From Nitrospinae bacterium RIFCSPLOWO2_12_FULL_45_22 (lineage in GTDB: Bacteria; 2-12-FULL-45-22): a stretch of DNA of 63,829 bases. This document shows positions 3,025-62,123 of this stretch, piece after piece (within the stretch, counting starts at the first letter, position 1; each line of letters starts with the position of its first letter). The DNA is taken from positions 1-63,829 of the forward strand of contig MHDQ01000207.1 of the NCBI GenBank assembly GCA_001803565.1. Reading direction: 5' to 3'. The translations under genes and the position numbers were made by a program. The notes under the pieces were generated by a model that worked only from the letters and a program-made list of their open reading frames with translations, was not told the origin of the DNA and did no database searches.

Positions 3025-3090
3025 GTAAGGCGTAAAGATTAAAGCTAAGGTAATTAGTCCCTTAGTTTTACGCTTTAAGCCTTACGCTTT
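3025..3090. repeat. Quasi-palindromic intergenic element, CGTAAAG family, copy 1
   Basis: The gap between the ZIP gene and acyP is a quasi-palindrome. The left arm holds GCGTAAAG and AAAGCTAAGG, the right arm CCCTTAGTTTTACGC and CTTACGCTTT. The same core recurs at 16108, 26624, 40987 and 47758. Confidence 0.8.
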
Positions 3091-3100
3091 CTGTTAGGAT

Positions 3101-3379
3101 ATGGGAGCAAGCAGGGTAAAGATTATTGTTAATGGGTTAGTACAAGGGGTCTATTTCCGCTCTACTACCCGGCAGCAGGCCCGACAATTGGGTATAACTG
3201 GCTGGGTCAAGAACCGCTGGGACGGCTCAGTGGAGATATTAGCAGAAGGTGATAGAGAAAAGCTGGAACGATTAATAGCCTGGTGCTACAAAGGACCTTC
3301 CGGGGCTGTGGTAGAGAAAGTCAACGTAGAATGGGAGCCTTTCCTGGACGAATTTCAAGATTTTACTATCGCCTATTGA
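3101..3379 (+). CDS. acyP: Acylphosphatase
   Basis: Small cytoplasmic enzyme (92 aa, the usual family size) that hydrolyses acyl phosphates such as carbamoyl phosphate or 1,3-bisphosphoglycerate. It shows the family motifs GLVQGVYFR, whose arginine binds phosphate, and GWVKNRWDGSVE, whose asparagine positions the catalytic water. The C-terminus ends in the usual FTIAY-like strand. It stands alone after a repeat-filled gap. The ATG start has only a poor Shine-Dalgarno sequence. It is unlikely to be anything else. Confidence 0.95.
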   Translation: MGASRVKIIVNGLVQGVYFRSTTRQQARQLGITGWVKNRWDGSVEILAEGDREKLERLIAWCYKGPSGAVVEKVNVEWEPFLDEFQDFTIAY

Positions 3380-3384
3380 TGAAA

Positions 3385-3401
3385 AATGAAAATTCCTATG
3401 C
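3385..3401. repeat. Partial copy of a dispersed repeat
   Basis: Seventeen bases (AATGAAAATTCCTATGC) just after the acyP stop match one end of the longer repeat found at 14051-14122 and, inverted, at 41639-41708. Confidence 0.5.
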
Positions 3402-3452
3402 GGTCAAGTTATTCAAATAGTTGGGAAATTAGCGGTGCGCTAAGGATAGGTT

Positions 3453-3989
3453 GTGGGCAAGATTATAGTACCTCCCCCAGTTAAATTGATCAGCGGGTTA
3501 ATCTCTAGCAACCTGGATTTGATGGAAAGGGCAAAAGAATTATTACAGCGCGAATATGGAGCGCTGGAGCTCGCAAGCCCCCTTTTCCCTTTCGACGTTA
3601 CCAAATACTACGAGCGGGAGATGGGTCCGGGATTGTTACGACAATATATATGCTTCCACCCTCTTATCTGGCGAGAAAGACTGCCAGAGATAAAATTATT
3701 GACTAATGACTTAGAAAGTTCCTTTACTAACCCCAGTGGTGGCCGTGAGATAAATATTGATCCCGGGTATTTGACCCTGGAAAACTTGATCCTGGCTACT
3801 ACTAAAAAGGCCAGCCACCGCCCTTATCTGCGAGACGGCATCTATGCTGAATTGACTTACCGTTTTATTAAAGGCTCTTTTCGGGAGCTGGAGTGGACTT
3901 ATCCGGATTATCGCCAGCCTCAAAGTATCGAATTCTTTAATCAGGCGCGAGAAGGGTACCGGCAACAACTGGCAGAGGATAAACAGTGA
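3453..3989 (+). CDS. DUF4416 family protein
   Basis: A 178-aa soluble protein that I recognise as the DUF4416 family by the opening VPPPVKLISGLISSN, the central INIDPGYLTLENLILATTKK and the late motif HRPYLRDGIYAELTYRF. No function is established to my knowledge. The family is scattered among Nitrospirota, Desulfobacterota and several candidate phyla. No membrane segment or signal peptide is visible. The start is GTG at 3453, and a usable Shine-Dalgarno (AAGGATAGG) precedes it. The gene converges on the minus-strand oxidoreductase, so it is probably transcribed alone or from the acyP side. Confidence 0.85.
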   Translation: MGKIIVPPPVKLISGLISSNLDLMERAKELLQREYGALELASPLFPFDVTKYYEREMGPGLLRQYICFHPLIWRERLPEIKLLTNDLESSFTNPSGGREINIDPGYLTLENLILATTKKASHRPYLRDGIYAELTYRFIKGSFRELEWTYPDYRQPQSIEFFNQAREGYRQQLAEDKQ

Positions 3990-4053
3990 AGGGTGAGCCC
4001 TAATGGGAATAATCAATTATTAGTTATCTTGTATGCTAACCAGGAACTGTTTT

Positions 4054-5403
4054 TCAAGTAGCTCGTCTTTGTACCCACCAGTACTTTTGCGTAGAATAGC
4101 ATAGCTTAGTTAGCAAAGGCGGACTGAGGGCCTTGCGGGTAGTCTGCCAATAGGGGACTTCACCAGTAAACATCTCCCAGAGTATTTCAGATAATGGTTT
4201 CTCTCCCGCCATTTTTTCTTCTTGCTCTTCTTTAAGCAAGGCCATAAGGGGGTGAGTGAAGACTTTTCTGGTAAAGACATATTCAAACATCTTAAAAAGA
4301 AATTTTCCATACATATTATCCCAAACAAATTTTTGCCTGCTCCTCTTATCAAACCCTTTATGGAATGCCTTTGCGGAAATCCCCCTATGCAGGGCTGTTT
4401 CAGCGGCAAAATAAGCCGTGTCAAAGGCTGACTCGATGCCGTTCTTTAAATACCGGGAATAACTAGCATCGCCCAGGATAACAAGTTGGTTAGTAAAAGG
4501 TCTCTTAGCCGGGGTGATAGGTATCTGTGGGTGGCAGTGGCAAGTAGTTTCCCAGGATGGGGGTAAGAATGGGCTTATCTTTGAGTTTCTTAAGATATCT
4601 TCTAAAGTCCTGATCTTTATATAAGGGCCAATGGCCGATACGGTAATATATTCCCCTTTTGGGGTAACAGCTAGGTAATGAGTATTATTAGAATAGATAG
4701 GGAAAATATGAATCATATCTCGGAATCTTTCTTTGATATAATCCTTACCCAGTCTTATCTCACTCTGACAGGTATGCCAGGTCATAGGGGGTTGGTAACC
4801 AAAAGTAAATTTATTCAGCAAGGCAGAATTAACCCCGAAGGCCCCGGCTAATAAGTCTGCCTCGTATATTTGCGCTGAGCCAGAACCCTTTAGCCTGAAC
4901 CATACCCTGGGTTTCTGATCATCGGTCAATTGGATATTGACAACCTCCCCTTCCTGAAATTTAGCCCCTTGCTTCAAGGCATAGTCCAGGATGAATTGAT
5001 CAAAGCTGATATCTTGATCTTCGCCGGCTTCCTGGCCCTGCCTCGGACCACCCCCCCGAAATACCCCATAAATCTTGGCTTCTCCTCCACCTTTTAGATC
5101 CACCCAATCATCTTGGGCATGGAAGGTAAAACCCTGGATATCATGCCGGATAACCTGGGATGTCAGTGGTACACCCAAATCTCTAAGGCGATTTGCTAAG
5201 CGGTTCCCTATAGTACCGGCACACATATTGCACCCTTTCGGTCCAGCAAAGCGAAAATTCTTATGGTCAAAGATTATCACTTCCAGGGGGTTACCCGTTG
5301 CCTTCGCCATCTGTAAAATAAAGATGGCAAAGAAACTACCGGCTGGCCCTCCGCCCAAAACGATTATTCTTGATATGTCCTGGGGCTTTTTCACCGGATC
5401 CAT
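4054..5403 (-). CDS. FAD-dependent oxidoreductase, geranylgeranyl-reductase-like
   Basis: A 449-aa flavoprotein. The N-terminus carries the dinucleotide-binding loop VLGGGPAGS, and a later GDASYSRYLKNGIESA matches the second FAD-contact motif (GDA) of the group that includes geranylgeranyl reductases and p-hydroxybenzoate-hydroxylase-like enzymes. Near residue 55 a GCNMCAG segment gives two close cysteines, which also occur in prenyl reductases of this group. The substrate cannot be read from the sequence; saturation of isoprenoid chains is one option. It is the third gene of a minus-strand cluster after glycogen synthase and glucokinase, with a 45-bp gap. The ATG has AAGGA just upstream. Confidence 0.75.
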   Translation of the reverse strand: MDPVKKPQDISRIIVLGGGPAGSFFAIFILQMAKATGNPLEVIIFDHKNFRFAGPKGCNMCAGTIGNRLANRLRDLGVPLTSQVIRHDIQGFTFHAQDDWVDLKGGGEAKIYGVFRGGGPRQGQEAGEDQDISFDQFILDYALKQGAKFQEGEVVNIQLTDDQKPRVWFRLKGSGSAQIYEADLLAGAFGVNSALLNKFTFGYQPPMTWHTCQSEIRLGKDYIKERFRDMIHIFPIYSNNTHYLAVTPKGEYITVSAIGPYIKIRTLEDILRNSKISPFLPPSWETTCHCHPQIPITPAKRPFTNQLVILGDASYSRYLKNGIESAFDTAYFAAETALHRGISAKAFHKGFDKRSRQKFVWDNMYGKFLFKMFEYVFTRKVFTHPLMALLKEEQEEKMAGEKPLSEILWEMFTGEVPYWQTTRKALSPPLLTKLCYSTQKYWWVQRRAT

Positions 5404-5448
5404 ATTCCTTGAAACCTCTAGTTAATTAGGATATGGCTATCTCCAGCT

Positions 5449-6408
5449 TTATGACAAAGCTAGATATGCGGCGCCTAAAATAGCCGCCTCATCTCCCAGG
5501 GTTGCTTGAAGGAGCTTTACCCTCTGGGTAGGCAGACGTAAAGCCCTCGTTTCAACTTCCTTTTTCGCCTCGGGCATAAACAAGGACCAGGCCTGGGCAA
5601 TCCCACCACCCAGGATAATAGCTTCCGGGTTAAAGATATTTATTAAATTAGAGAGTCCTATCCCTAATACTCTGCCTAACTCTGCCCATATTTGCCTGGA
5701 AAAATGGTCTCCTTGCAAGGCTGTCTGATAGAGCAGTTCCGGGGTTACTTTTTCTGGCTTTGAGCCTACTAGCTCCCACAGCCTGGTTTCTATCCTTTGC
5801 TCAAAAGCCTCTCTTGCTATCCTACTAAGGGCTACGGCAGAGACATATGCCTCCAGACATCCCTGGTTGCCACAGAGGCATCTCTCTCCATCAGGATATA
5901 TAACCATATGACCAATCTCGGCTGCAGTACCATCCTCTCCCCGCCATAGCTCTCTATTAAAGATTATTCCACCACCTAAGCCAGTACCAATAGTAAGGCA
6001 GATAAATGAATTGATCTCCCTTCCTGCCCCTAACCACATCTCCCCTAAGGCATAGGCATTGGCATCGTTCTCTACTAAGATAGGGATATTTAGAGGATAG
6101 AAGGCCTGCTTTAACTCTTCTCTGATAGGAAAATCTATGCAGCCAGGGAAATTAGGGGCTTGAGTGATGATCCCGTCGTGGGCATTGATGACCCCAGCAA
6201 TACCTAAGGCCACCGCTGCAATGTCATAGCCTTCTGATAACTCTTTCACCAGACCAGCCAGGTTTTTTACTACCAGGGGCATACCCAGGTGGGCTTCCGT
6301 AGGCTTCCATTGCCGATGTAAAAGAACTCCTTGATGGTTTACCACTGCGGCCTTAAGGTTGGTAGCGCCGCAATCTATGGCAATAACCCCCGCTCCCCTT
6401 TCTCCCAT
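5449..6408 (-). CDS. glk: ROK-family glucokinase
   Basis: A 319-aa ATP-dependent sugar kinase of the ROK family. It shows the phosphate-binding loop IDCGATNLKAAVV, the second nucleotide motif TIGTGLGGGI, and the zinc-binding ROK signature CLCGNQGCLEAYVS preceded by GHMVI. The catalytic Asp lies in VENDANAYALGE. The length is normal for bacterial ROK glucokinases. It starts two bases after the glycogen synthase stop, so the two are in one operon, which suggests glucose phosphorylation feeding or recovering from glycogen metabolism. ROK members can also use N-acetylmannosamine or fructose, so the exact sugar is inferred. Confidence 0.85.
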   Translation of the reverse strand: MGERGAGVIAIDCGATNLKAAVVNHQGVLLHRQWKPTEAHLGMPLVVKNLAGLVKELSEGYDIAAVALGIAGVINAHDGIITQAPNFPGCIDFPIREELKQAFYPLNIPILVENDANAYALGEMWLGAGREINSFICLTIGTGLGGGIIFNRELWRGEDGTAAEIGHMVIYPDGERCLCGNQGCLEAYVSAVALSRIAREAFEQRIETRLWELVGSKPEKVTPELLYQTALQGDHFSRQIWAELGRVLGIGLSNLINIFNPEAIILGGGIAQAWSLFMPEAKKEVETRALRLPTQRVKLLQATLGDEAAILGAAYLALS

Positions 6409-6410
6409 CT

Positions 6411-7877
6411 TTAAGAAAACCGCTCCAGGCCCTCAAGATATAATTCTTGATATCGTTTTGCTGAGTTTTTCCAGGAAAAATCCTGGGCCATAGTATTAGC
6501 CAGCAGCTTTCTCCAGAGTTTCTTATCCTGGTATATAGATATAGCCTCTCTAATCTTGGTTACCAGGGGTTCAACGGCGTATTGAGCAAATTTAAAGCCG
6601 GTACCACGACCAGTTACTGGATCAAAATCCTCTACAGTATCGTCTAACCCACCGGTGGCCCTTGCAATGGGTATGGTGCCATATTTCATACTATATATTT
6701 GATTAAGTCCACACGGCTCATAGCGGGAGGGCATAAGGAAAAAATCGGCCCCAGCTTCAATCTTATGGGCAAGGGCATTATTAAATTCTAGCTTTATAAT
6801 GGCCTTACCAGGAAAACGCCTCCCTATTGCCTGGAATAGGGTATGGTATCTTTCTTCACCCGTACCGAGGAGCACAAAACCTACGTCCAATACCATTATC
6901 TGATCCATAGCCTGGGTCAGGAGATCGAACCCTTTCTGGTCAGCCAGCCGAGAAATCATAGCCAGGATGGGGGAATTCTTGTTGATCTTCAGACCGGATA
7001 TGGCGATAAGGTCATCTTTACACTTTTTCTTACCCGAAATACGCCGCCGGTCATAATTGGCTACAATGAATCGGTCTCTAGCTGGGTTCCACTCATCATA
7101 GTCCACACCATTAATGATGCCATAAAGGTCTTTGCTGCGGTCCTGTAGTACCCCTTCCAGGCCATAGCCATATTCTGGTGTTCGGATCTCCTGGCTATAT
7201 TTGGAGCTGACGGTGCTAATGATATCCGAGAAGAGGATGCCCCCCTTCATGAGATTAATATTACCCCAATATTCTAACCCCTGGATAGAAAATAGCTCTG
7301 ATGGTAACCCTGTGAGCGAGAAGTTCTCAGCCGGGAATATCCCTTGATAAGCCAGATTATGGATGGTATAAAAAGACAGGATATGACGAAAGAAAGGGTC
7401 TTGTCTGAAAATAGTCTTGAGATATACGGGTATTAAAGCGGTCTGCCAATCATGGCAATGGATCACATGCGGTTGAAAGTCTATTGCCTTTAAGAGTTCT
7501 GGAACAGCACGGCAAAAAAATATAAATCGCTGGGCATTGTCCGGGTAATCACCCTGCGGAGTGCTATAGAGATATTCGCGATCATAATAGCGATCGTTCT
7601 GCAACAAATAGACCCGGATATCCTCAGGTGCCTGCAAGGTAAAGACTGTCGCTGGGCCAGCATCCCAGGGTAATGGCACAGATAAGCGGGGTATTAGTTC
7701 CTGGTAAATAAATTCCCCCCGCTTTACGGCCTGGTAAAGGGGTAGCACTATTCGGACATCATGGCCTAATGAGGCCAAGGCCATGGGCAAGGTTCCAGCT
7801 ACATCAGCTAACCCGCCCGTCTTAGCATAAGGGGTTGCCTCGGGCGAGACAAATAAAATCTTTAATTTTTTTATCAT
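6411..7877 (-). CDS. glgA: Glycogen synthase (ADP-glucose type, GT5)
   Basis: Extends alpha-1,4-glucan chains from ADP-glucose. The N-terminus ILFVSPEATPYAKTGGLADV holds the KTGGL nucleotide-sugar motif. The C-terminal Rossmann half carries PSRYEPCGLNQIYSMKYG and GTIPIARATGGLDDTVEDF, the usual GT5 motifs. I start it at the ATG at 7877 (488 aa, standard length), because homology begins there and GAGG lies just upstream. An in-frame start 24 codons earlier would add an unrelated leader. A good promoter lies at 7954-7982. It is the first gene of the glgA-glk cluster; no branching enzyme or GlgC is in the window. Confidence 0.93.
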   Translation of the reverse strand: MIKKLKILFVSPEATPYAKTGGLADVAGTLPMALASLGHDVRIVLPLYQAVKRGEFIYQELIPRLSVPLPWDAGPATVFTLQAPEDIRVYLLQNDRYYDREYLYSTPQGDYPDNAQRFIFFCRAVPELLKAIDFQPHVIHCHDWQTALIPVYLKTIFRQDPFFRHILSFYTIHNLAYQGIFPAENFSLTGLPSELFSIQGLEYWGNINLMKGGILFSDIISTVSSKYSQEIRTPEYGYGLEGVLQDRSKDLYGIINGVDYDEWNPARDRFIVANYDRRRISGKKKCKDDLIAISGLKINKNSPILAMISRLADQKGFDLLTQAMDQIMVLDVGFVLLGTGEERYHTLFQAIGRRFPGKAIIKLEFNNALAHKIEAGADFFLMPSRYEPCGLNQIYSMKYGTIPIARATGGLDDTVEDFDPVTGRGTGFKFAQYAVEPLVTKIREAISIYQDKKLWRKLLANTMAQDFSWKNSAKRYQELYLEGLERFS

Positions 7878-7953
7878 GTTCCTCTTTTTTAACCTTAAAC
7901 TGAATGCACCATAAAGGGGGGTATTTACACGACACCCCGTGCCTCTCAACTCC

Positions 7954-7982
7954 TATTTATCAAACTATAACCGGGCTGTCAA
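7954..7982 (-). promoter_or_regulatory. Sigma70-type promoter for glgA-glk
   Basis: On the minus strand TTGACA is followed after exactly 17 bp by TAAATA. This lies about 77 bp upstream of the chosen glgA start and also supports the later start codon. The -35 box is perfect; the -10 box is only moderate. Confidence 0.55.
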
Positions 7983-8026
7983 GTAAATATCTGACCTATT
8001 GGGTTTGCTCATCACGCAATTAACGA

Positions 8027-8032
8027 TATAAT
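8027..8032 (+). promoter_or_regulatory. -10 box of a relic promoter ahead of the yqeB-like remnant
   Basis: TATAAT at 8027-8032 with TTGCTC 16 bp upstream. It sits 45 bp before the first ATG codon of the remnant's own reading frame (8077), so it may be the surviving promoter of a lost gene. Confidence 0.35.
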
Positions 8033-8076
8033 TTCCCATTATGCATACGGTAAAGAAGATGTTTAAGGAAGAGATT

Positions 8077-8199
8077 ATGGTATTAATCAAAGGTGTTGGG
8101 GAGATAGCTTCTGGTGTGGCTTACAGACTGTTCCTCTCTGGTCTCCTGGTGTGTATGACAGAAATCCCTACTAACCTTGATATGAAATACAACACTTTT
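8077..8199 (+). pseudogene. Remnant of a YqeB/EF2563-like molybdenum-hydroxylase accessory gene
   Basis: The translation from 8077 begins MVLIKGVGEIASGVAYRL and continues to MTEIPTNL. This matches my memory of the N-terminus of the selenium-dependent molybdenum hydroxylase accessory family YqeB/EF2563, whose members start with a Rossmann-like VLIRGAGDLASGVAHRL-type segment followed by a TEI strand. After about 34 residues the similarity stops, and the frame runs antisense into the 3' end of the SUMF1 gene that ends at 8200. Intact family members are near 260 aa, so this is a 5' fragment left by a deletion or rearrangement. A promoter-like TATAAT is still present upstream. Family identity from such a short piece is tentative. 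Confidence 0.5.
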
Positions 8200-9159: not shown

Positions 9160-9177
9160 CCTCTACTCCTCTCTCAG

Positions 9178-9819: not shown

Positions 9820-9862
9820 AACCCTCCTTATACACCAATACACCTATTTGGTCAATAAAGTT

Positions 9863-11171: not shown

Positions 11172-11200
11172 AGTTAAATTAAGCAATTACCAAAATTATG

Positions 11201-11311
11201 CACCGCAAAGGCGCAAAGAGCGCCAAGTTCAGTAAGGAGTGAGGAGTTAACTACTTACTGCTCACTCCTTACGACATGCATATCTTTGCGTTCTCCGCGT
11301 CTTTGCGGTTA
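11201..11311. repeat. Nested quasi-palindrome with two different word families
   Basis: The outer arms are ACCGCAAAGGCGCAAAGAG on the left and a right arm ending CGTCTTTGCGGT. The inner arms are AGTAAGGAGTGAGGAGT on the left and CTGCTCACTCCTTAC on the right. The two pairs use unrelated words, as if one element had inserted into the loop of another. The rest of the 381-bp gap from 11075 to 11455 holds only the promoters listed. Confidence 0.75.
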
Positions 11312-11363
11312 TGAATCAGGATTATTGAACAGGCTCAGATTACAATTTTGGGTGAGTTCCAGG

Positions 11364-12340: not shown

Positions 12341-12355
12341 TTATAACTAACGTTA

Positions 12356-12420
12356 TCAGTCATTGGCCAATGCGGGCTATAAGGCTTTAAACTGGTGACT
12401 AATGACCAGTGACCAATGAC
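12356..12420. repeat. Quasi-palindromic element, TAATGACCA family, copy 1
   Basis: The left arm CAGTCATTGGCC is answered by a right arm with GGTGACTAATGACCAGTGA. The same words recur at 45801 and 52515. Confidence 0.65.
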
Positions 12421-14050: not shown

Positions 14051-14122
14051 CTTTTAAATTAACGCCGGCTAAAGCCTGCGACTACCATAAAACCGCATTA
14101 TTAAAATGAAAATTCCTATGCA
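14051..14122. repeat. Dispersed 70-bp repeat, copy A
   Basis: About 70 bp in the ald 5' region matches, with two substitutions and one indel, the reverse complement of 41639-41708. It contains a GCCGGCTAAAGCCTGC hairpin and the AATGAAAATTCCTATGC end also found at 3385. Confidence 0.85.
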
Positions 14123-14190
14123 ATAAATTTATGAAATTATAATTAACAAATGCCACTACCTTTGTCAAGCGTGCCTGGAGGCGACACTCC

Positions 14191-15401: not shown

Positions 15402-16115
15402 ATGCCAGGGGCTACAGCACTAGTGCCGGCGGCTGGTATAAGTAAGAGAATGGGGGGGACAGAATATAAGCAGTTCCTCACGCTGGGTGATAAGCCACTG
15501 TTGGCCCATACCCTGCTAAAACTCCAGGCCTGCCCTCTTATTAAGGATATTTATCTGATAGTCCCGGCTAGCAAAATTGAATATTGCCAACAGGAGATAG
15601 TGTTTAGATACCAATTAGATAAAGTGGTTGAGGTGGTAAAAGGGGGAGAGGAGAGACAAGACTCTGTCTATCTCGGTTTCATTAGTATTAAAAAAGGAGC
15701 TGATATCGTCTTGATCCATGACGGGGTAAGGCCCTTCATAGATACCCGCTTATTAGAAGAAGTAATAAAGGGATCTGAAGAGCATGGGGCTTGTGTAAGT
15801 GGAATTCCTTGTTTTGATACTATAAAGCAAGTAGATACTCAAGGAACTGTTCAACAGACTTTGCCCCGCCATTTCCTGTGGCAGATCCATACTCCCCAAG
15901 CCTTTAATTACCAGATATTAAAAGAGGCATTGGAAAAGGCCAGGGAGGAAGGGTATTATGCTACTGATGAGGCTTCCTTAGTAGAGAGGACCGGTTACCC
16001 CGTCAAAGTGGTCAAAGGATTTCCTTATAACATAAAAATTACTTCTCCCCCTGATCTGGTAATAGGAGAAGCCCTCTTGGCAACCCTTGCACGCTACAGA
16101 GAACATAAAGCTTAA
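15402..16115 (+). CDS. ispD: 2-C-methyl-D-erythritol 4-phosphate cytidylyltransferase
   Basis: Third step of the MEP isoprenoid pathway: joins MEP and CTP to give CDP-ME. The 237-aa protein has the CTP-binding N-terminus ALVPAAGISKRMGG with the downstream KQFLTLGDKPLL, the DGVRPFI motif, and the late YATDEASLVERTG. I start at the ATG at 15402 (AGGAGAGG upstream) because the conserved Rossmann-like strand begins there; an earlier in-frame codon lies within the PIN/TRAM gene. The stop codon is already part of the repeat element at 16108. Next to ispF, as in many bacteria. Confidence 0.95.
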   Translation: MPGATALVPAAGISKRMGGTEYKQFLTLGDKPLLAHTLLKLQACPLIKDIYLIVPASKIEYCQQEIVFRYQLDKVVEVVKGGEERQDSVYLGFISIKKGADIVLIHDGVRPFIDTRLLEEVIKGSEEHGACVSGIPCFDTIKQVDTQGTVQQTLPRHFLWQIHTPQAFNYQILKEALEKAREEGYYATDEASLVERTGYPVKVVKGFPYNIKITSPPDLVIGEALLATLARYREHKA

Positions 16116-16183
16116 AGCGCAAAGTCTCAAACTAAGGAATAAATTACCTCAGCTTTAAGCCCTATACTCTACGCTTTACGCTT
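16108..16183. repeat. Quasi-palindromic intergenic element, CGTAAAG family, copy 2
   Basis: It holds CTTAAAGCGCAAAG, the core ACTAAGGAATAAATTACC and the right arm CTACGCTTTACGCTT. It begins within the last codons of ispD and ends just before the ispF ribosome site. Confidence 0.8.
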
Positions 16184-26623: not shown

Positions 26624-26708
26624 AGGAAGCTAAAAGTGCAAGACGTAAAATGTAAAACTAAGGAATAATCCCTTAGTTTTGCGATTTTCGCTTTAATCTT
26701 TACCTTTT
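26624..26708. repeat. Quasi-palindromic intergenic element, CGTAAAG family, copy 3
   Basis: The rpoB-rpoC gap is filled by this copy: arms around CGTAAAATGTAAAACTAAGG and CCTTAGTTTTGCGATTTTCG, with the conserved core ACTAAGGAATAATCCCTTAG. It lies within what should be a single rpoBC transcript. Confidence 0.8.
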
Positions 26709-37941: not shown

Positions 37942-38226
37942 ATGGGACGCTCGGTTAATAAAGGGCCTTATATAGATCATGGGCTTTTAAAAAAAGTGGA
38001 AGAGATGAGTAGTAGGGGCGAGAAAAGAGTCCTTAAGACTTGGTCCCGGCGCTCTACTATTACCCCCCTTCTGATAGGTCATACCCTGGCTGTGCATAAC
38101 GGCAAGAAATTTATACCGGTATATGTAACCGAGAACATGGTAGGGCATAAGCTAGGGGAGTTTGCTCCGACCAGGATTTTTAAAACCCACAGTGGCCATA
38201 CTAAACGAGTAACTTCATTGAAATAA
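37942..38226 (+). CDS. rpsS: Ribosomal protein S19
   Basis: A 94-aa small-subunit head protein. [20 protein letters not shown] and the C-terminal [16 protein letters not shown] match the family. It is followed by a 25-bp-armed inverted repeat instead of running directly into rplV. Confidence 0.96.
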
Positions 38227-38320
38227 TTGGGTTATTAGGTTACTAGGTCATTGGCTTAAAGGGATAGTTATGACTGAGTAATATTCTAATGACTTAATAA
38301 CCTAATGACCCAATAACCTA
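38225..38320. repeat. Quasi-palindromic element, GGTTATTAGGTCATT family, copy 1
   Basis: The left arm at 38228-38252 and right arm at 38288-38312 are 25-bp inverted repeats matching at 22 positions. Words such as GTTATTAGGTTACTAGGTCA repeat with small changes. The element separates rpsS from rplV inside the S10 operon. Confidence 0.85.
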
Positions 38321-47751: not shown

Positions 47752-47757
47752 AGAATA

Positions 47758-47828
47758 ATAAAGCGTAAAACGTAAAGCTAAGGAATAATTCCCTTAGTTT
47801 TACCCCTGGTACTTTACGCTTTGAGCTT
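47758..47828. repeat. Quasi-palindromic intergenic element, CGTAAAG family, copy 5
   Basis: The outer arms AAAGCGTAAA (47760-47769) and TTTACGCTTT (47813-47822) are perfect inverted repeats; the core is GCTAAGGAATAATTCCCTTA. It sits between rpmJ and rpsM. Confidence 0.85.
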
Positions 47829-50671: not shown

Positions 50672-50728
50672 CCGTGTCCGTGTTCCGTGTCCGTTTTATG
50701 CGGTCACGCCCCAGGGGCACGGACACGA
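50672..50728. repeat. Inverted repeat with CGTGTCCGTG arms between convergent genes
   Basis: CGTGTCCGTG (50673-50682) is perfectly complementary to CACGGACACG (50718-50727). The left arm repeats its word (TTCCGTGTCCG). It lies between rplQ and the convergent acyl-CoA dehydrogenase and could work as a bidirectional terminator, though no T-run is present. Confidence 0.75.
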
Positions 50729-51873: not shown

Positions 51874-51924
51874 AAATAACCCCTCTCCTTTTAGCTTTCT
51901 ACTAATATGACTTTGTCAAATTAG

Positions 51925-52062
51925 ATAAATTCTAAACTCGAAATCCTAAAATCCTAAACAAATTCAAATGACCTAAATTCAAAACAGATAAAATAGTTTT
52001 GAGATTTGGCCTTGGGATTTTGATATTGTTTAGGATTTAGTGTTCAGGATTTAGAATTTGTT
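51925..52062. repeat. Long quasi-palindrome with AATCCTAAA words
   Basis: The left arm contains AAATCCTAAAATCCTAAACA. The right arm contains TTGTTTAGGATTTAGTG and GGATTTAGAATTT. Almost the whole gap between the acyl-CoA dehydrogenase and the B12-binding subunit can fold on itself. Confidence 0.75.
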
Positions 52063-52095
52063 CAGTTGTCTTGGTATTCAGTAACTGTGACAATG

Positions 52096-52494: not shown

Positions 52495-52514
52495 CACCTA
52501 TCTTCTCCCCGATA

Positions 52515-52590
52515 TTGGTTAATGGTCATTAGTCATTTTAGGCCATTCCACCTCCATATTCCAATGACCAGTGACTAATGACCAATGACT
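52515..52590. repeat. Quasi-palindromic element, TAATGACCA family, copy 3
   Basis: TGGTCATTAGTCA (52523-52535) is perfectly complementary to TGACTAATGACCA (52572-52584). The words of each arm repeat. It fills the gap between the two mutase subunit genes. Confidence 0.85.
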
Positions 52591-52592
52591 TC

Positions 52593-54263: not shown

Positions 54264-54292
54264 TTTATACAAAACTGAGAAAATATTGTTAG
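54264..54292 (-). promoter_or_regulatory. Probable promoter of the mutase-acyl-CoA dehydrogenase operon
   Basis: On the minus strand CTAACA and TATAAA are separated by 17 bp, about 58 bp before the mutase ATG. Moderate match. Confidence 0.45.
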
Positions 54293-54304
54293 GATAAATA
54301 TTAT

Positions 54305-54448
54305 GTAACAGTTCACAGGGGTCAGGGATCAGTTGTCAGGCAAGATTCTCCTCAAAGACATCTTTCGCTCAATCTCCAAATATTTATGACCATGCAAAAT
54401 TTAAAGTCTTTTCCTGAATCCTACCAACTGAACCCCGTGAACTGTTAC
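54305..54448. repeat. Inverted repeat enclosing a GGGGTCAGGGATCAG-type word
   Basis: GTAACAGTTCACAGGGG (54305-54321) and CCCCGTGAACTGTTAC (54433-54448) are inverted repeats differing by one base. The left arm runs into GTCAGGGATCAGTTGTCAGG, which shares words with 62081-62123. Confidence 0.75.
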
Positions 54449-54540
54449 AATATTATTGATAACTGGGGCTATTTTACAAAAACCCTTCTTGATGTCAAGC
54501 TCAAATCCAGGGATTTTATTAGTCTCTGGTCCAGCATCCT

Positions 54541-55185: not shown

Positions 55186-55192
55186 GGGAACT

Positions 55193-55744: not shown

Positions 55745-57180
55745 TTTTCTTGTCCTGACTCAATTTCTAGCTTGATCTTAAACCGCTCTGACGACTCCAT
55801 TCCTTTCGTGATAGGAGAAGCAAATTCCACATTCTGGAATAAAGGGGACCTATCTAAAAGGGGTATTAAATTAGAGGCGGATGAGGCAAACCCGTCAATT
55901 ACCACCTTACTTTCGTCAAAAGTAAGGTTAGTTAACCAGGCATCATCCGGTAGGATACTGGTCAATTCCTTCAATATTTCTAACTTGCTGGGTTGGCTGT
56001 TTTTGATGGCATCAAAGAATCTAATCTCTTTTGTTATCTCATCGGCCTCTTTTTGCTGTTGCTCAACCATAGATACCTGGGTTTTGATCTGGGCAATGCT
56101 GTGCTCTAGCCTGTTTAAGTCCCTCCGTTCTTTAATAAGGTGGGTAGATAGACTTGTAATGCCTAACAAAAAGACCAGGCCGATCAAGACCAGGGTAGTC
56201 AAGAGACCCCCCCTTTTCCTTTTCTTGCGCAACTCTATGGGGAGGAGGTTTATTTTGCCCCAACTCCTATCTACTCCTCTCAGGCCTAACCCAATGGGAT
56301 AAGCAAGATTGGCGGGGAGAGCCGAGTGGGGATCAGTTAGGACTTTTATCTTTTTAAAAGGGTCAGACGCCAAGGCCTCAATACCAGTCGCTTCCTTAAG
56401 GGTTGGTAAAAGGGTATTGGCGACTTCAACCCGGGCATCGTTGATTATTAACTCTTTTATTGTACTGTTATACCCATGCCGGCCTTCTTCCCAGAGGGCG
56501 TATTCCAATTCTCTCTTTAGGGGGCAAGATACGTCTCCATTTAAAGTCAATACCCTAGAATATTTTAATGCCTTGTCTTGAAGTAAGAGGAATTCTAAAG
56601 AGGAATCTTCTAGATGGATTATAGCCCGTAAGTCTTTATCCAGCCTATAGTAGTTAAATAAGATGGTATTCAATAAAGCAGTCGAAGAGGTTTCCACTAT
56701 GGTAGGCTCGATCTGGGCTTCTTTAAGGATATCCAGATAATATTCCAGGGAATCCTTTTTCATAGCCACTAAAAATATCCGGAGCAGATTTTCTTCAGCA
56801 TTCCGTTGGATTACCTGATAGTCAAAATATACCTCTTCTGCGGTAAAGGGTATATATCTTTCTAACTCATAGCTGATAACTTGAGCTAGGTTTTCTTCTA
56901 CTGCTATTGGTAGGTCTATATACCTGACTATGGTCTTTTCCCCTGGTACCCCCAGGACATAATTATCAGACAAGAACCTGTTTCGCCCCACAAAACCCTT
57001 AATCTCCATGGCCACAGTCTTTTTGTCGCCTTTAAGTCCCTCTAAGGGTACAATTTGATAATCTTTTAACACTACCTCCCTCAAGCCCTTTTGTAGGTTA
57101 GCCAGGAGGAGATATTGGGAGGTAAATTGGATACCAATACACCCCTGGCCATAAAAATCTTTTAGATTTACCCTGCCCAT
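55741..57180 (-). CDS. gspL: Type II secretion system protein GspL (PilM/PilN-like fusion)
   Basis: Links the cytoplasmic ATPase GspE to the membrane platform. About 479 aa: an actin-like cytoplasmic domain resembling PilM (GVPGEKTIVRYIDLPIAVEE, YELERYIPFTAEEVYFDYQV), one membrane helix near residue 325 (LVLIGLVFLLGITSL), a coiled coil, and a PilN-like periplasmic domain with ILPDDAWLTNLTFDES. I use the ATG at 57180; a TTG at 57195 would overlap gspK further. Confidence 0.88.
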   Translation of the reverse strand: MGRVNLKDFYGQGCIGIQFTSQYLLLANLQKGLREVVLKDYQIVPLEGLKGDKKTVAMEIKGFVGRNRFLSDNYVLGVPGEKTIVRYIDLPIAVEENLAQVISYELERYIPFTAEEVYFDYQVIQRNAEENLLRIFLVAMKKDSLEYYLDILKEAQIEPTIVETSSTALLNTILFNYYRLDKDLRAIIHLEDSSLEFLLLQDKALKYSRVLTLNGDVSCPLKRELEYALWEEGRHGYNSTIKELIINDARVEVANTLLPTLKEATGIEALASDPFKKIKVLTDPHSALPANLAYPIGLGLRGVDRSWGKINLLPIELRKKRKRGGLLTTLVLIGLVFLLGITSLSTHLIKERRDLNRLEHSIAQIKTQVSMVEQQQKEADEITKEIRFFDAIKNSQPSKLEILKELTSILPDDAWLTNLTFDESKVVIDGFASSASNLIPLLDRSPLFQNVEFASPITKGMESSERFKIKLEIESGQEK

Positions 57181-58247
57181 ACCGAGTCTTTCCAATAAAG
57201 ATAATTCACTGGGTTTTGAGCGAATGGATTTAAGCGTATAACGCTCCTGATGGTTCGTTGTACCGGGCTGTTATCCAGTTGGCCTGTGGATTCTAAAGAA
57301 TAAACCGTAGGGGGGTCTACGCTTATCTGCTGTACCATCAGGGAATAATTTCGCTCCCCCACCAAGTCCCTAACCTCTGTTAAGTGGATAAATTCTTTTT
57401 CTTTCCGATATGCCATGATCAATTGCGCCAGCTCTGGAGTTATACCAGTAATGGTTTCTAAGACTTCTTGCGGGGCCGTGTTCAAATTGATCTTGTCAGA
57501 CGAGGAATATATGGTTATTAAGTGAGCAAGCCCTTTGTAAGCGTCTTCCTCCTCTCCTTTCTCTATTTTTTTCCTACGATAATAGTCAGAACCATAAAAG
57601 ACCCCTGGTGTCACTCCCCGGACAAACAATAGTTCCTCGATCGTATCGAACTGCCCGTCCTTACAGTCATATGGAGGGCTCAATGCCTGATAATAGTCTT
57701 CCTCAGCACCATTAAGCCGGTGGGCATTATTGGTATCTCGCCAATCCAATATAGAATCTACAATAATATCCCGTTCAGTGCCAGTAACGCCAGAATTAGT
57801 GACTAACTTCACCAACTCCGCTTGCCGGGCCCGGTTAATATTTATTTTCCCATCCTCATCCCTAACCTGGACCCAGGCCTTACCATCTTCCCATGGGACC
57901 TCATAAGGCTCCTGGGTTTTTATCCAGCCCCAGTGCCCTTTATCTTCATCTTCTATTCCTGCGCCTTTCCTATCCTCGTTTACAACAGGTATGCCCCTGC
58001 GGTAAAGCCGCATCCGGTTATATTTTATCAATTCTATTACGGTCTTATTGAGGCCCGCCCGGGCAAGATAATAAACCTTGGTCTCATCCAGGAGATTACG
58101 GGTAAGGGTCAGTTCGGTACGCATGGCATAAGAAAACTCTAGCGCTATCATAGTTAAGAGGGTAAGAACCCACAGAACCAGTATAAGGGCAATACCATTT
58201 TGGGCAGCCCAAGCCTTATGGTGCGAAGAATGGTCACTGGGTAACAC
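57168..58247 (-). CDS. gspK: Type II secretion minor pseudopilin GspK
   Basis: A 359-aa tip pseudopilin. The prepilin leader ends in QNGIALILVLWVL (cleavage after Gly18) and lacks the Glu at position +5, as is usual for GspK. The large alpha domain includes DEDGKININRARQAELV and SSDKINLNTAPQEVLETI, both SAM-like or helix-hairpin-helix-like repeats typical of the family. Overlaps gspJ by 14 bp and gspL by 13 bp. Confidence 0.92.
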   Translation of the reverse strand: MLPSDHSSHHKAWAAQNGIALILVLWVLTLLTMIALEFSYAMRTELTLTRNLLDETKVYYLARAGLNKTVIELIKYNRMRLYRRGIPVVNEDRKGAGIEDEDKGHWGWIKTQEPYEVPWEDGKAWVQVRDEDGKININRARQAELVKLVTNSGVTGTERDIIVDSILDWRDTNNAHRLNGAEEDYYQALSPPYDCKDGQFDTIEELLFVRGVTPGVFYGSDYYRRKKIEKGEEEDAYKGLAHLITIYSSSDKINLNTAPQEVLETITGITPELAQLIMAYRKEKEFIHLTEVRDLVGERNYSLMVQQISVDPPTVYSLESTGQLDNSPVQRTIRSVIRLNPFAQNPVNYLYWKDSVWAG

Positions 58248-59019
58248 TAGATCCCTCCTCGGTCGCTACTCCCCTGGCCGCTATTGGTAATTTACTATTA
58301 ACTTCAATAGGGATAACTATGGAGTTATTGGGAAACCTGGTTAAATCATGATCAAGTTTCATTTTTATCCTCACAGCCCGAGGTAGTCCTCCTTCTTTCG
58401 TCCCTTCCCATTCCTTTTTCCACTCCTGATCCGAATCTTTAGTGCTATAATACTCAAAACTGAATTCGGTGATGCCTGAGAGTAGCTCGAGGGCTTCATC
58501 GTCTTTAATGTCCTTTCGTTTTTTCTCTTCAAAGAATCCCTTGGTTAAGACGCTTTTTTCTAAGGCTCTCAGGGCTTTATTGCCTGTGGTAGGATCGGCT
58601 TTCAAATAATAGGTAGTAAAGGATAGACCACCCTTGAATTTGGGTGACAAGGGTAAGGAGGTGACAAAGCCCAGCGAGGTCTCTTTTCCTTCAAAGGCTA
58701 TTTGCGGCCCTTCACCGGCTTCACCCTTAGACCCTAAAGGATAGGCAGAGCTTATCTGATCAGCTATAAGGCTTAGTGCTGCCCGGAGCCTCTGGTACTC
58801 GGCCTGGGTAGCTTCACCTTTTTCCCAGGTTTTTATACCAATGCTGAAGGCCTGAAATACTATGGCAAAAACCAAACCCAGGAGACTCATAGCTACCAGC
58901 AACTCCATCAAGGTAAACCCCCCAGCCCCTATCCTCCCCCTTGATGGGGGAGGGTTAGGGAGGGGGTGAAACTCACGCTGTAAGCGCTTAATCCATCTCT
59001 GAATCAGTCTCTTCTTCAT
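58234..59019 (-). CDS. gspJ: Type II secretion minor pseudopilin GspJ with repeat-derived leader
   Basis: A 261-aa minor pseudopilin. The processing site is GAGG|FTLMELLVAMSLLGL with the conserved Glu39 at position +5. The leader before cleavage is 34 residues, unusually long, and its second half (EFHPLPNPPPSRGRIGAG) is encoded by a palindromic repeat at 58918-58974. The C-terminal domain has the usual GspJ layout. It overlaps gspI by 32 bp, which fixes the reading frame. Confidence 0.9.
   Translation of the reverse strand: MKKRLIQRWIKRLQREFHPLPNPPPSRGRIGAGGFTLMELLVAMSLLGLVFAIVFQAFSIGIKTWEKGEATQAEYQRLRAALSLIADQISSAYPLGSKGEAGEGPQIAFEGKETSLGFVTSLPLSPKFKGGLSFTTYYLKADPTTGNKALRALEKSVLTKGFFEEKKRKDIKDDEALELLSGITEFSFEYYSTKDSDQEWKKEWEGTKEGGLPRAVRIKMKLDHDLTRFPNNSIVIPIEVNSKLPIAARGVATEEGSSVTQ
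58918..58974. repeat. Palindromic repeat lying in frame inside gspJ
   Basis: CCTCCCCC (58933-58940) and GGGGGAGG (58946-58953) form a perfect stem over TTGAT, flanked by TTAGGGAGGGGGTGA. I recall this CCCTAACCCTCCCCC-type word as a widespread intergenic repeat; here it is translated into a Pro-rich stretch of the GspJ leader. Confidence 0.7.
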
Positions 59020-59461
59020 GAGTTACTGTGACCTGTTGTTGAATATTCTTCCCTCGGAGCAAGAGGGTGGCTAATTTGACTGATTTGTTCTTCTCTTTTG
59101 CAGGCAGAAATAGCTCTAATTTGAGTTCATATGGTTCAATGGGCAATTCTGACTCCGTTTCATTAATCTCTTGCTCAGAATAGATCGGAAAAGGCTTTAT
59201 CTCGGCCTTCCAGGTATAACCCCCTTCAAGCTCGCCAGACTCTATGCCTGGTGAAAAGGTATCCCTCAGCCTAAGCTCCTCCATCTTTTCCTGGGCGAGG
59301 AAGACAGCTTTGGTATATTCCCGGGATAACCAGGCTGCACGCACCCCCCCGGCAAATATCTCTATCACCAGGGTTAAGGCAATAGCCAGGATAGCCATAG
59401 CTACCATTATCTCCAGGAGGGTAAAGCCACCCTCCCCTTCATTATCCCTCTGTACCTTCAT
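58988..59461 (-). CDS. gspI: Type II secretion minor pseudopilin GspI
   Basis: A 157-aa minor pseudopilin with prepilin cleavage in EGG|FTLLEIMVAMAILAIAL (Gly12, Glu17). The following AAWLSREYTKAVFLAQEKME resembles the GspI region of the initiation complex. Its start lies 20 bp inside gspH. Confidence 0.87.
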   Translation of the reverse strand: MKVQRDNEGEGGFTLLEIMVAMAILAIALTLVIEIFAGGVRAAWLSREYTKAVFLAQEKMEELRLRDTFSPGIESGELEGGYTWKAEIKPFPIYSEQEINETESELPIEPYELKLELFLPAKEKNKSVKLATLLLRGKNIQQQVTVTHEEETDSEMD

Positions 59462-59942
59462 CCCTGGAAATTCTCACTAAACCAGTAATAATGTCAACCT
59501 CGATAAGATAGCCCTTACCTTTTTGATTGCTTAGAATAACATCCCCCCCACTAGAGCTACCATTGGGGTAAAAGGTTATGGAGTTATTCTCTTTTAGTTT
59601 TATCTCTTCTGGTAGCTTAAATGTCTGCAAATTTCCCGTTTTTTCTGCTGGGTTAGGAGACCCAGCACTATCCGAGGGGGAGGTCAAGTCTTGGCGAGAA
59701 GCCACTTCCTCAATGCCATAGACCCCTGCCTCATTATCAAAAAAGACCTCATGAGGGGTCTTTTTGGCCACTGCCTGACCCCGGGCATATCTCAGGGTAG
59801 TAGCTATTTTCCTGGCTGTAGACTTAAGACTTGCGCTCCCCAAGCCACTAGTTATCCGGGGCCCGGCTAAGGCCAGCATTAGCCCCAGCAGCAGAAGTAC
59901 GACTAACAACTCTACTAAGGTAAACCCTTTTTGATATCGCAT
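59442..59942 (-). CDS. gspH: Type II secretion minor pseudopilin GspH
   Basis: A 166-aa pseudopilin. Prepilin motif KG|FTLVELLVVLLLLGLML (Gly6, Glu11), then KIATTLRYARGQAVAKKTPH typical of GspH/FimT. The C-terminus includes SITFYPNGSSSGGDVIL, also a family feature. The 5' leader overlaps the repeat at 59948. Confidence 0.9.
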   Translation of the reverse strand: MRYQKGFTLVELLVVLLLLGLMLALAGPRITSGLGSASLKSTARKIATTLRYARGQAVAKKTPHEVFFDNEAGVYGIEEVASRQDLTSPSDSAGSPNPAEKTGNLQTFKLPEEIKLKENNSITFYPNGSSSGGDVILSNQKGKGYLIEVDIITGLVRISRDEGTEG

Positions 59943-59947
59943 GGAAT

Positions 59948-59995
59948 TTAGGTCATTAGGTTACTAGGTCATTGGGTTATTAGGTCAATTAGTTA
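59948..59995. repeat. GGTTATTAGGTCATT family element, copy 2 (single arm)
   Basis: TTAGGTCATTAGGTTACTAG and GGTCATTGGGTTATTAGGTC repeat the words of the element at 38225. It fills the gspG-gspH gap and encodes the last codons and stop of gspG. Confidence 0.75.
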
Positions 59996-60458
59996 CCTGT
60001 TTTTGCTCGAGTCCTTTCCAACTAACAATATCCTGGTTTTCTCCCTCTCCCCCTGGAACGCCATCAAGCCCATAAGAGATTATGTCATACTCACCATTAT
60101 CCCCGGGGCATTTGTATTCATAAGGCCCACCCCAGGGGTCATTAGGGATTTCTTTGGGCAGATAAGGGCCATCCCATCGCTCTACCCCAGAAGACTTAAC
60201 CCGGAGGGCGGCTAGTCCTTCTTCAGTGGTAGGGTAGCGGCCTACATCCAGCCTGAAGGTATCCAGTGCAGTAGCAAACAGTTCTATCTGGGCCTGGGCA
60301 GCTTGCTGCTTAGATTTCCCTACTTTACTAAAGAGGCGTGGGCCTACCAATGCAGCCAATAGCCCCAATATAATCATTACAATAAGTAGTTCTATTAAGG
60401 TGAAACCTTCTTCCCGTCCCTTTCTCATAAAACCCCTACTCCCTAAACGTTTTTGCAC
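59985..60458 (-). CDS. gspG: Type II secretion major pseudopilin GspG
   Basis: A 157-aa main subunit of the pseudopilus. Prepilin cleavage in EEG|FTLIELLIVMIILGLLA (Gly18, Glu23). The GspG signature is clear: LDTFRLDVGRYPTTEEGLAA, PYLPKEIPNDPWGGPYEY and a calcium-loop-like DGVPGGEGENQDI. The last residues come from the repeat. Confidence 0.95.
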   Translation of the reverse strand: MQKRLGSRGFMRKGREEGFTLIELLIVMIILGLLAALVGPRLFSKVGKSKQQAAQAQIELFATALDTFRLDVGRYPTTEEGLAALRVKSSGVERWDGPYLPKEIPNDPWGGPYEYKCPGDNGEYDIISYGLDGVPGGEGENQDIVSWKGLEQKQVTN

Positions 60459-60499
60459 TCATGGCAAAATTAACCATGAAGAATTAGCAATTCACAATT

Positions 60500-60570
60500 A
60501 GAGGGACTAGGAGATTAGGAGACTAATAGAGATTAGATATTTAGTCTCCCAGTCTCTATAAATCTCTTAG
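60500..60570. repeat. Quasi-palindromic element with GACTAGGAGATT words
   Basis: The left arm GACTAGGAGATTAGGAGACT is complementary in blocks to TTAGTCTCCCAGTCTCTATA. It is one of the nested units of the gspF-gspG gap. Confidence 0.75.
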
Positions 60571-60782
60571 TGCTTCATTTCAGAAATACAGTTACGTATT
60601 ATGCCTATTTTTTGCCTTCTTTTTTATTAGGAAGCCAAGAGGCCAGGAAATTAACCTCTCCTGTATTCCTGGTTTCCTTATCATAAGCACTTTCTCTCAA
60701 ATACGTCACCGTAATTATGGATTAGAGCACTTAGTCTCAGTCCTTTGATTTTGAAATGCTAATTGCTAATTTTGCCTTTTAC

Positions 60783-60842
60783 ATTGAAAGGGGTTTTTGT
60801 CTATCTGTGTCTATCCGTGTTCATCTGTGGCTAAGTTAAACA
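60783..60842. repeat. Single-arm element with TCTGTGTCTATCCGTG words
   Basis: GTCTATCTGTGTCTATCCGT and TTCATCTGTGGCTAA are imperfect repeats of one word. I recall this word as common in intergenic DNA of diverse bacteria. No complementary arm is adjacent. Confidence 0.55.
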
Positions 60843-60851
60843 ATTCCCGAA

Positions 60852-62069
60852 TCAGAAGGGGAGTTCACTAATGCTGAATATAGCCAACAGCATAGAAACT
60901 ACAATAGTGCCTACTATCAGGCCCATAACCAGGATCATAATTGGCTCCAGCAGGGTTACCAACCTCTTGATAGCGTTCTTTACTTCGCCCTCATATATCT
61001 CAGCCAATTTTATCAGCATCTCTTCCAGTCTGCCGGTCTCATCCCCAATAGTGATCATATGAACCGCTAAGGGAGGGAAAAAACCCCCTTCCTGCAATAG
61101 GTTCCCTATCCTTTCCCCCTCTTTTAACCGACTCCGGATCCGGGTAATGGATCTAGCTATTATCTCATTCCCACTGACATCTTTGGCAATATTTAAGCCG
61201 GTAAGGATGGGGACGCCACTGGCAATCATGGTGCCTAAGGTCCTGGCAAAACCAGCTATCTCGGCCTTCTGGATCAAGCGGCCCACTATCCCTATCCTCA
61301 ACTTTAGCCGATCCCACCGGAGTCTTCCTTCCGGTGTCTTTAAATACCTCCGGCCCAGGTAATAACCCGCCCCTAACAGAGCCAAAAAGAGCCACCAATA
61401 CCCCCGGATAAGATAGCTTATAGAGAGGAGAAGTTGAGTCATAAAAGGTAGGTTTTGGCCCATGTCAGAAAATATCCGGGCTAGTTTGGGTACCACAAAC
61501 CCCAATAGGACCATCAAAGAGCCTAGACTTACTAAGAATAGTAAGGCCGGATACAACATAGCGGAAAAGATATAATCTTTCAATTCTTTGGAGCGCTCCA
61601 AAAAATCACTCAGGCGCATCAATACCAGATCCATTATACCCCCAGCCTCTCCGGCTTTGATCATATTAATATAGATCTTTGGGAAGACCTGGGGATAGCC
61701 CCCCAAGGCATCGGCTAAGGATTTACCACCCCGGACGTCTTTCAACACATTAGCTATGATAGAGCGGAGTTTCTTATTTTCCGTTAGATCCTGCAGTATC
61801 TCCAGGCTCTTATCTACTTGAAGCCCTGCTTTTATCAGGGTAGTCAGTTGTTGGGTGAAGATCAGCAGGTCTTTTTCCGTGACCCGTTGGGTAAAGAGGG
61901 GCCAGTTTAGTCCCAGGGTAGGCCGCGCATCTTTTGGCATACTGACCTTGATAGGGACATAGCCCAGGCTTTGCAGCCGTTCTACTACTATCTTTTCTCC
62001 TTTGGCTTCCATAAAGCCTTCAATAATTTTACCTTCTTGATCAGCAGCCTTATAAATATATCTCGCCAT
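60852..62069 (-). CDS. gspF: Type II secretion inner-membrane platform protein GspF
   Basis: A 405-aa polytopic platform protein. Two homologous cytoplasmic domains (FTQQLTTLIKAGLQVDKSLE and FARTLGTMIASGVPILTGLN) are each followed by membrane helices; the last is EPIMILVMGLIVGTIVVSML. The first domain includes MIKAGEAGGIMDLVL. Overall length and layout are typical. It lies 62 bp after gspE. Confidence 0.95.
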   Translation of the reverse strand: MARYIYKAADQEGKIIEGFMEAKGEKIVVERLQSLGYVPIKVSMPKDARPTLGLNWPLFTQRVTEKDLLIFTQQLTTLIKAGLQVDKSLEILQDLTENKKLRSIIANVLKDVRGGKSLADALGGYPQVFPKIYINMIKAGEAGGIMDLVLMRLSDFLERSKELKDYIFSAMLYPALLFLVSLGSLMVLLGFVVPKLARIFSDMGQNLPFMTQLLLSISYLIRGYWWLFLALLGAGYYLGRRYLKTPEGRLRWDRLKLRIGIVGRLIQKAEIAGFARTLGTMIASGVPILTGLNIAKDVSGNEIIARSITRIRSRLKEGERIGNLLQEGGFFPPLAVHMITIGDETGRLEEMLIKLAEIYEGEVKNAIKRLVTLLEPIMILVMGLIVGTIVVSMLLAIFSISELPF

Positions 62070-62080
62070 ATAACAGAGTT

Positions 62081-62123
62081 CGGGGGGCAGGGATCGGGGA
62101 TCGGCTGACCCCTGAGCCCTGAC
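62081..62123. repeat. GGGGTCAGGGATCAG family element
   Basis: CAGGGATCGGGGATCGG is answered by CCCCTGAGCCCTGAC. It lies in the gspE-gspF gap and shares words with 54312-54340. Confidence 0.6.

Follow-up and report, generated by a model that had tools for sequence, protein, structure and literature searches.

The 63,829-nucleotide stretch studied here (the window) is contig MHDQ01000207.1 (C207) of Nitrospinae bacterium RIFCSPLOWO2_12_FULL_45_22, a metagenome-assembled genome (G000; 3.67 Mb in 321 contigs, 85% complete). It contains approximately 16 sites, qualifying to varying degree, with arrays of a 7-10 nt word, at most of which two inverted arms form a quasi-palindrome. Our analysis indicates that these elements are probably copies of selfish hairpins of the type found as intervening sequences (IVSs) in rRNA. 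A complete unit would comprise an array of a 7-10 nt word, a small gene for a four-helix-bundle protein (PF05635, also IVP or S23), and the same array inverted. The window copies would be gene-less forms resembling miniature inverted-repeat transposable elements (MITEs), reduced to arms and a short loop and belonging to several diverged lineages distinguished by their words. Once transcribed, the elements are predicted to fold into long hairpins, which would be tolerated at places where one more hairpin matters little, namely at gene junctions, in the loops of other hairpins, and at helix tips in rRNA.

PF05635 genes between inverted arms

What an initial annotation of these elements had overlooked is a PF05635 gene between such arms, and it is this gene that points to elements of the rRNA-IVS type. 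It surfaced in a search for genes between inverted arms, the first example (23S rRNA IVP) being found inside a AGAACAAAG palindrome. G000 has nine PF05635 genes (23S rRNA IVP, S23, or four-helix bundle), and for eight of these the pairing of the flanks beats 200 of 200 shuffles. A flank score of at least 17 is reached by seven of the nine IVP genes and by 10 of 1095 other genes (P ~2e-12). Arms visibly made of word arrays occur at loci L266-L269, L271, and L272. Two word families of the window have members with the gene inside, as in IVS/S23 elements: the arms of L269 consist of the 8-mer word of 38226-38319, and those of L274 of the AATTAGC word of 60465-60790. Inverted, stem-forming arms are found in the window elements and at the IVP loci alike. 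The IVP gene of L272 (contig C129), with its inverted arms, lies between two tRNA genes. Other candidates for word-flanked cargo were rejected; L119 (CoA transferase) and L017 (cytochrome b) are ordinary genes lying between adjacent elements, and the DDE transposase gene L196 has repeats that are not words.

On cyanobacterial plasmids, arms and gene move as a unit. Strongly pairing flanks were seen for 16 of 21 plasmid IVP genes, which are not all independent because some are orthologous copies, compared with 0 of 29 non-IVP genes on a single Nostoc plasmid; the IVP plasmids come from Cyanobacteria, an Azospirillum (Alphaproteobacteria), and a Riemerella (Bacteroidota). Arm, gene, and arm are shared as a block of ~416 bp, including across genera, and among some of the loci homology ends at the arm ends while the surroundings differ. 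Plasmids pNsp_a and pNsp_c of Nostoc ATCC 53789 are each filled or empty for the other's elements. A gene-depleted derivative also exists in Nostoc (L298), in which, compared with L288, both arms and the gene ends are kept and most of the gene is lost. This MITE-like form is what the window elements would be after such gene loss. IVP genes were also noticed at CRISPR-Cas operon junctions (L286, L279, and L283), at cas10-cmr3 in Picosynechococcus PCC 7003 and at cas6-cas4 in Pseudanabaena and Anabaena plasmids. No IVP relatives were found in viral contigs and phages.

The only 23S rRNA gene found in G000 (L301, contig C265) has a palindromic insert of ~75 nt (L301 2781-2876) at helix 45 (E. coli 1166-1175), which we take to be the usual IVS site. 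Its palindrome score is 18, where shuffles reach at most 13, and its fold z is -5.6. L301 possesses a further 74-nt insertion relative to E. coli position 292. The window elements lie between protein genes rather than in 23S rRNA, and for this reason we call them IVS-type and not IVSs.

Several observations weigh against the derivation from IVP-bearing units. None of the window elements contains an IVP gene or a recognisable remnant of one, most word families of the window are without a known gene-bearing member, and no convincing IVP remnant was seen in gene-less loops of G000. Periodicity is less clear in the arms of L270 and L274 than at other IVP loci, L273 has an array on just one of its sides, and the arms of the helix-45 insert show no significant word period. 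No clear target-site duplication was found in nested copies of word elements, nor a clean one at the Nostoc junctions, which have short matches (TTCTA, ATG). Among genomes rich in the word CGCAGAG, 19 of 26 have PF05635, compared with 118 of 310 others (P 7e-4); for the word GTRAGSM the figures are 10 of 11 genomes and 115 of 306 others (P 5e-4). This association favours IVP but is not specific to it, because the Y1_Tnp transposase family is similarly enriched; G061 and G049, both very rich in CGCAGAG doublets, have no IVP among the matches listed. Lastly, the S23 protein of Coxiella burnetii is apparently not produced in vivo (PMC4990558).

Some of these points would also suit a reading in which mobility belongs to the arms, which another enzyme would move, and the IVP gene is a passenger lodged between them. 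The gene-less copies greatly exceed the nine IVP genes, word-rich genomes exist with no IVP match listed, and the loops hold many different inserts. We nevertheless consider a passenger gene unlikely, since on plasmids the block that is shared, even across genera, contains both arms and gene, and paired arms flank IVP genes far more often than other genes.

Were the elements of IVS type, the window families would descend from gene-bearing units, the Avd-related IVP would participate in their movement, and RNase III-like processing may make them tolerable. Avd is an accessory protein of diversity-generating retroelements, in which it partners the reverse transcriptase; a weak profile match hints at its kinship to IVP. 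A single reverse transcriptase gene (RVT_1) occurs in G000, with no sign of a link to the elements.

Word elements in the window and the genome

Palindromes were scored by local self-complementarity (palindrome score, IR) and arrays by lagged identity (tandem score), and both scores were compared with dinucleotide shuffles and length-matched coding segments. Gaps of at least 40 bp were scored genome-wide (n=779) on 121 G000 contigs (1.44 Mb), on which all genome-wide element counts rest; each window element was compared with 100 dinucleotide shuffles of its own stretch, and RNA fold z was computed.

An IR of at least 19 occurs in 141 of the 779 gaps, in no shuffle, and in one coding control, and a tandem score of at least 11 in 175 gaps, 16 shuffles, and 14 coding controls. 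Arrays are present in 93 of 177 strongly palindromic gaps versus 47 of 469 other gaps. The arms have periods of 7 (107 arms), 8 (50), 9 (35), and 10 (18), whereas shuffles give ~5-8 per period without a peak; the dominant period 7 matches the tandem 7-nt intergenic words of cyanobacterial short tandemly repeated repetitive (STRR) sequences, and periods 8-10 occur too. Although gaps make up 15% of the sequence, 150 of 164 word loci are mostly intergenic, chiefly between co-directional genes and close to stop or start codons. Clustering of the words gave about twenty multi-copy families. The initial annotation, which had quasi-palindromic elements with arms of a repeated 7-10 nt word filling intergenic gaps, was therefore right on the design and its periodicity, and the extent is larger than it stated. 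It had also named complementarity no better than that of shuffled sequence as evidence to the contrary; most window sites beat their own dinucleotide shuffles. Palindromes without word repeats, TGTCATTTCGAGCGNAGCGAGAAATCTT and GTCATTCCGGC..GCCGGAATCCAG, occur at L167 9695-9772 and related loci and are separate families. The sites in the window are as follows.

3020..3090: CGTAAAG-family quasi-palindrome with conserved centre CTAAGG..CCTTAG; IR 19 (0/100 shuffles), z -5.3; aligned with 11 other copies
11203..11310: nested, GTAAGGAGTGAGGAGT palindrome within the loop of a CCGCAAAGGCGCAAAG palindrome; IR 19 (0/100 shuffles), z -9.4
12347..12420: array of AATGACC-type 7-mers, weak palindrome; tandem 13 at period 7 (0/100), IR 10 (0/100)
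16107..16183: CGTAAAG family, in an 89-bp gap; IR 12 (1/100 shuffles), z -1.5; the orthologous genes of G001 overlap
26627..26706: CGTAAAG family, rpoB-rpoC gap; IR 18 (0/100); the same gap of G001 has a TAGGGRY-word element
38226..38319: 8-mer TTRGGTYA palindrome, rpsS-rplV; IR 21 (0/100), z -8.0; G001 gap ~2 bp; word of the arms of IVP locus L269
40987..41067: CGTAAAG family, rpsH-rplF; IR 15 (0/100), z -2.9
47752..47828: CGTAAAG family, upstream of rpsM; IR 11, marginal (5/100), z -4.9
50672..50727: CCGTGTCCGTGT word element; IR 10 (2/100), z -5.9
51917..52068: AATCCTAAA family; IR 24 (0/100), z -6.2
52513..52591: GTCATTA 7-mer words; IR 14 (1/100), tandem 14 at period 7 (0/100), z -4.6
54304..54449: GTAACAGTTCAC..GGGGTCAGGGATCAG with clean outer ends; IR 19 (0/100), z -5.0; ~6 copies
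59948..59996: one-armed 8-mer array of TTAGGTCA/TTAGGTTA; tandem 16 at period 8 (0/100); no palindrome (IR 5, 51/100)
60465..60790: composite of AATTAGC-family outer arms (word of IVP locus L274), a GATTAGGAGACTA inner element, and a MITE in the right arm
60504..60571: GATTAGGAGACTA palindrome, inner element of the composite; tandem 10 (0/100), IR 12, marginal (6/100), z -3.3
60570..60734: MITE-like CTTAGTGCTTCATTTC..GAGCACTTAG of ~165 bp, a different class, in the right arm of the composite; filled and empty copies, apparent TTA/CTTA duplication
60798..60833: one-armed 10-mer array of TGTCTATCTG, CACAGAT/CACGGAT family; tandem 14 at period 10 (0/100); no palindrome (IR 3, 78/100)
62083..62123: short word palindrome of GGGATCGGGGATCG / CTGACCC; IR 9 (0/100), tandem 13 at period 7 (0/100), z -1.8

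The lowest RNA fold z values are -9.4 (11200-11312) and -8.0 (38224-38320), most others range from approximately -3 to -6, and the folds of 16106-16183 (z -1.5) and 62076-62128 (z -1.8) are weak. That the second arm complements the first in most copies, as first described, is true of most sites; 59948-59996 and 60798-60833 are one-armed, and 47752-47828 and 60504-60571 are marginal. One correction applies within the composite at 60465-60790, where 60570-60734 is a different, ordinary MITE-like element inside the word element. Elsewhere in the window, a two-copy repeat, AAAATGAAAATTCCTATGC (81% identity between the copies), is found at 3383-3419 and 14103-14139; G001 has a similar palindrome (L235 2381-2620), and this is perhaps another family.

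Covariation, gain and nesting

The initial annotation held that both arms change together so that pairing is kept. In pure families an arm fits its own partner about as well as the arm of another copy (8-mer, 0.59 vs 0.58; CGCAGAG, 0.47 vs 0.44; GTCATTA, 0.53 vs 0.51), and only in heterogeneous clusters did it fit its own partner better. Permuting the words in one arm left the pairing of pure arrays mostly unchanged, low P values coming chiefly from composite elements, and 12 aligned homologous CGTAAAG copies have no compensatory pairs. This part of the description is thus not upheld. Because own-partner preference and compensatory pairs are absent and pairing is mostly neutral to permutation, we conclude that the word is kept and not the base pair; an RNA conserved for its structure was rejected as an explanation on account of the missing own-partner preference in pure families and the 12 CGTAAAG copies.

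These results also bear on an origin without mobility, in which slippage of the polymerase creates the words locally and template switching at hairpins creates the inverted arms. Tandem repeats and palindromes are the expected products of such events, array length varies in other genomes, and a heptamer excess has been tied to polymerase slippage (PMC4692102). Template switching, however, predicts that the arms are in register, and pure arrays are without register. The same word families and composites are found at many loci, identical composites recurring at unrelated ones, and some words are found in distant genomes. We regard a purely local origin as highly improbable, and slippage may still reshape the arrays after their arrival.

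Gain of the elements is lineage-specific. Named relatives of the G000 RpoB are at best ~58% identical over most of its length, with Acidobacteriota first, and an order-level relative, G001, was used for comparison. At the rpoB-rpoC junction the element is of the CGTAAAG family in G000 and of TAGGGRY words in G001; therefore, one gap has received different words. G001 has no element at rpsS-rplV or in the 16107 gap. G001 has the design in 44 of 180 gaps (score of at least 17), with other words, which bears out the earlier view of one design in many unrelated words rather than a single transposon family; some other Acidobacteriota genomes assembled from metagenomes also show word hairpins.

Orthologous gaps that are empty or hold other words are difficult to reconcile with the possibility that these are functional sites under selection, either protein-binding arrays or RNA structures. 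Such sites would be in keeping with the conservation of the word rather than the base pair and with positions at operon junctions, and multicopy "global regulator binding sites" of Geobacter metallireducens are read as IHF/HU sites, in one species (PMC2700814). The nesting of elements in one another and, for RNA structures, the lack of covariation speak further against selected sites, which we find very doubtful.

The initial annotation mentioned similar words from other bacterial genomes, and some words do recur in distant bacteria. Of 336 genomes, 66 contain CGCAGAG doublets, for which the control with the pattern reversed is mostly zero, and several distant copies have a common outer end, ACCGC. 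The GTRAGSM triplet is found in 10 genomes besides G000; in one, G287, the control is as frequent as the triplet, which marks this genome as simply array-rich. The reversed control pattern had 42 matches in G181, nine in G191, and 24 in G287, which therefore have other heptamer words. The 80 named rpoB loci, being mostly coding, gave low word counts.

Comparison of filled and empty copies within G000 reveals word elements in the loops of other word elements, up to three levels deep. When structure was read from the empty copies, 19 of the 24 insertions proved to lie at the loop or at most 5 nt from it, versus 8.5 expected (P ~1e-6, indicative only because the 24 cases were hand-entered and some empty copies are shared). 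The CTTAGTGCTTCATTTC..GAGCACTTAG MITE inserts at TTA. It has several copies in G000, some within word elements and some with internal inserts of their own.

A search for RAYT genes had been recommended as well, the possibility being that the elements are of REPIN type and moved by RAYT (Y1_Tnp) transposases. G000 has five Y1_Tnp genes, and the family is present in 23 of 26 word-rich versus 176 of 310 other genomes (P 0.0014). Yet the matches listed include no Y1_Tnp for three word-rich genomes, namely G332 (the richest, with 164 word doublets and 100% completeness), G001, and G129. No word elements flank the Y1 loci of G000; where paired flanks are strongest (L001, contig C282), they consist of inverted GGGTCAGGTCTATTTT instead. 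Repetitive extragenic palindromes (REPs), moreover, are single hairpins and not tandem word arrays. RAYTs are contradicted as the sole source, and we hold the REPIN-type explanation to be the most improbable of those considered. A GGGGTCAGGTCTTGACATTTGACATAA palindrome at L167 11216-11348 may be the REP family of the L001 RAYT.

Comparison with known systems

Beyond the IVS-type interpretation of the window, we tentatively raise the possibility of a widespread, unrecognised mobile class of word-armed hairpins with an S23/IVP (Avd-like) gene, accompanied by far commoner gene-less copies. Its members might include ribosomal IVSs, cyanobacterial STRRs, and the heptamer pairs of Geobacter and Xanthomonas, and insertion at hairpin tips and gene junctions might be driven by IVP, possibly together with a reverse transcriptase. 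For ~30 years heptamer arrays, ribosomal IVSs, and the S23/four-helix-bundle proteins have each posed a separate puzzle. Should they prove to be parts of one element, a large fraction of "intergenic repeats" would gain a carrier gene and an orphan protein family a context, and DNA insertion at hairpin tips would be directly testable in standard laboratory cyanobacteria or E. coli. We found no relevant paper for the exact word strings, and none linking S23/IVP genes with word arrays outside rRNA in a search made largely outside subscription journals.

STRRs were reportedly described by Mazel et al. in 1990. These and the related LTRRs are likewise intergenic tandem words (PMC2408588), and the Nostoc plasmid IVP genes found here lie between such arrays; they differ in having been described as tandem repeats and not as arms of a gene-bearing unit. 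The Geobacter sites resemble the G000 elements in being tandem 7-8 nt words (GTTGCTYN, MTYCTGA, TCTCCGTS), mostly in opposite-strand pairs with variable spacing, whereas the available part of that account makes no link to IVP genes or mobility (PMC2700814). The GGGAATC arrays of Xanthomonas are intergenic heptamers with 70-75 inverted pairs per genome near gene ends, but they form a single word family and were studied for G-quadruplexes (PMC4692102); an S23 homologue from Xanthomonas campestris has a solved structure (2gsc). The TAACTGA repeats of Beggiatoaceae are intergenic heptamers common to distant lineages and with no known carrier, but nearly all are direct, and they were proposed to be translational sites (PMC4679880). 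REPINs are also small, intergenic, non-autonomous palindromes (PMC3116915); unlike the G000 word elements, they are without tandem words and are tied to Y1 transposases, which the word elements do not need.

The closest comparison is with IVSs of the Coxiella type. The IVS of Coxiella burnetii replaces the helix 45 tetraloop, has a 28-bp terminal stem, and is cut by RNase III in vitro, and tandem GACAGAT heptamers precede its S23 gene (PMC4990558). Known IVSs are in rRNA, whereas the G000 elements lie between protein genes and in each other's loops, comprise many families per genome, are mostly gene-less, and have word arrays in both arms. The two are alike in their inverted terminal arms forming a long stem, in insertion at a helix where the tetraloop is replaced, in the S23/IVP gene inside, in the tandem heptamers ahead of that gene, and in their selfish, sporadic character.

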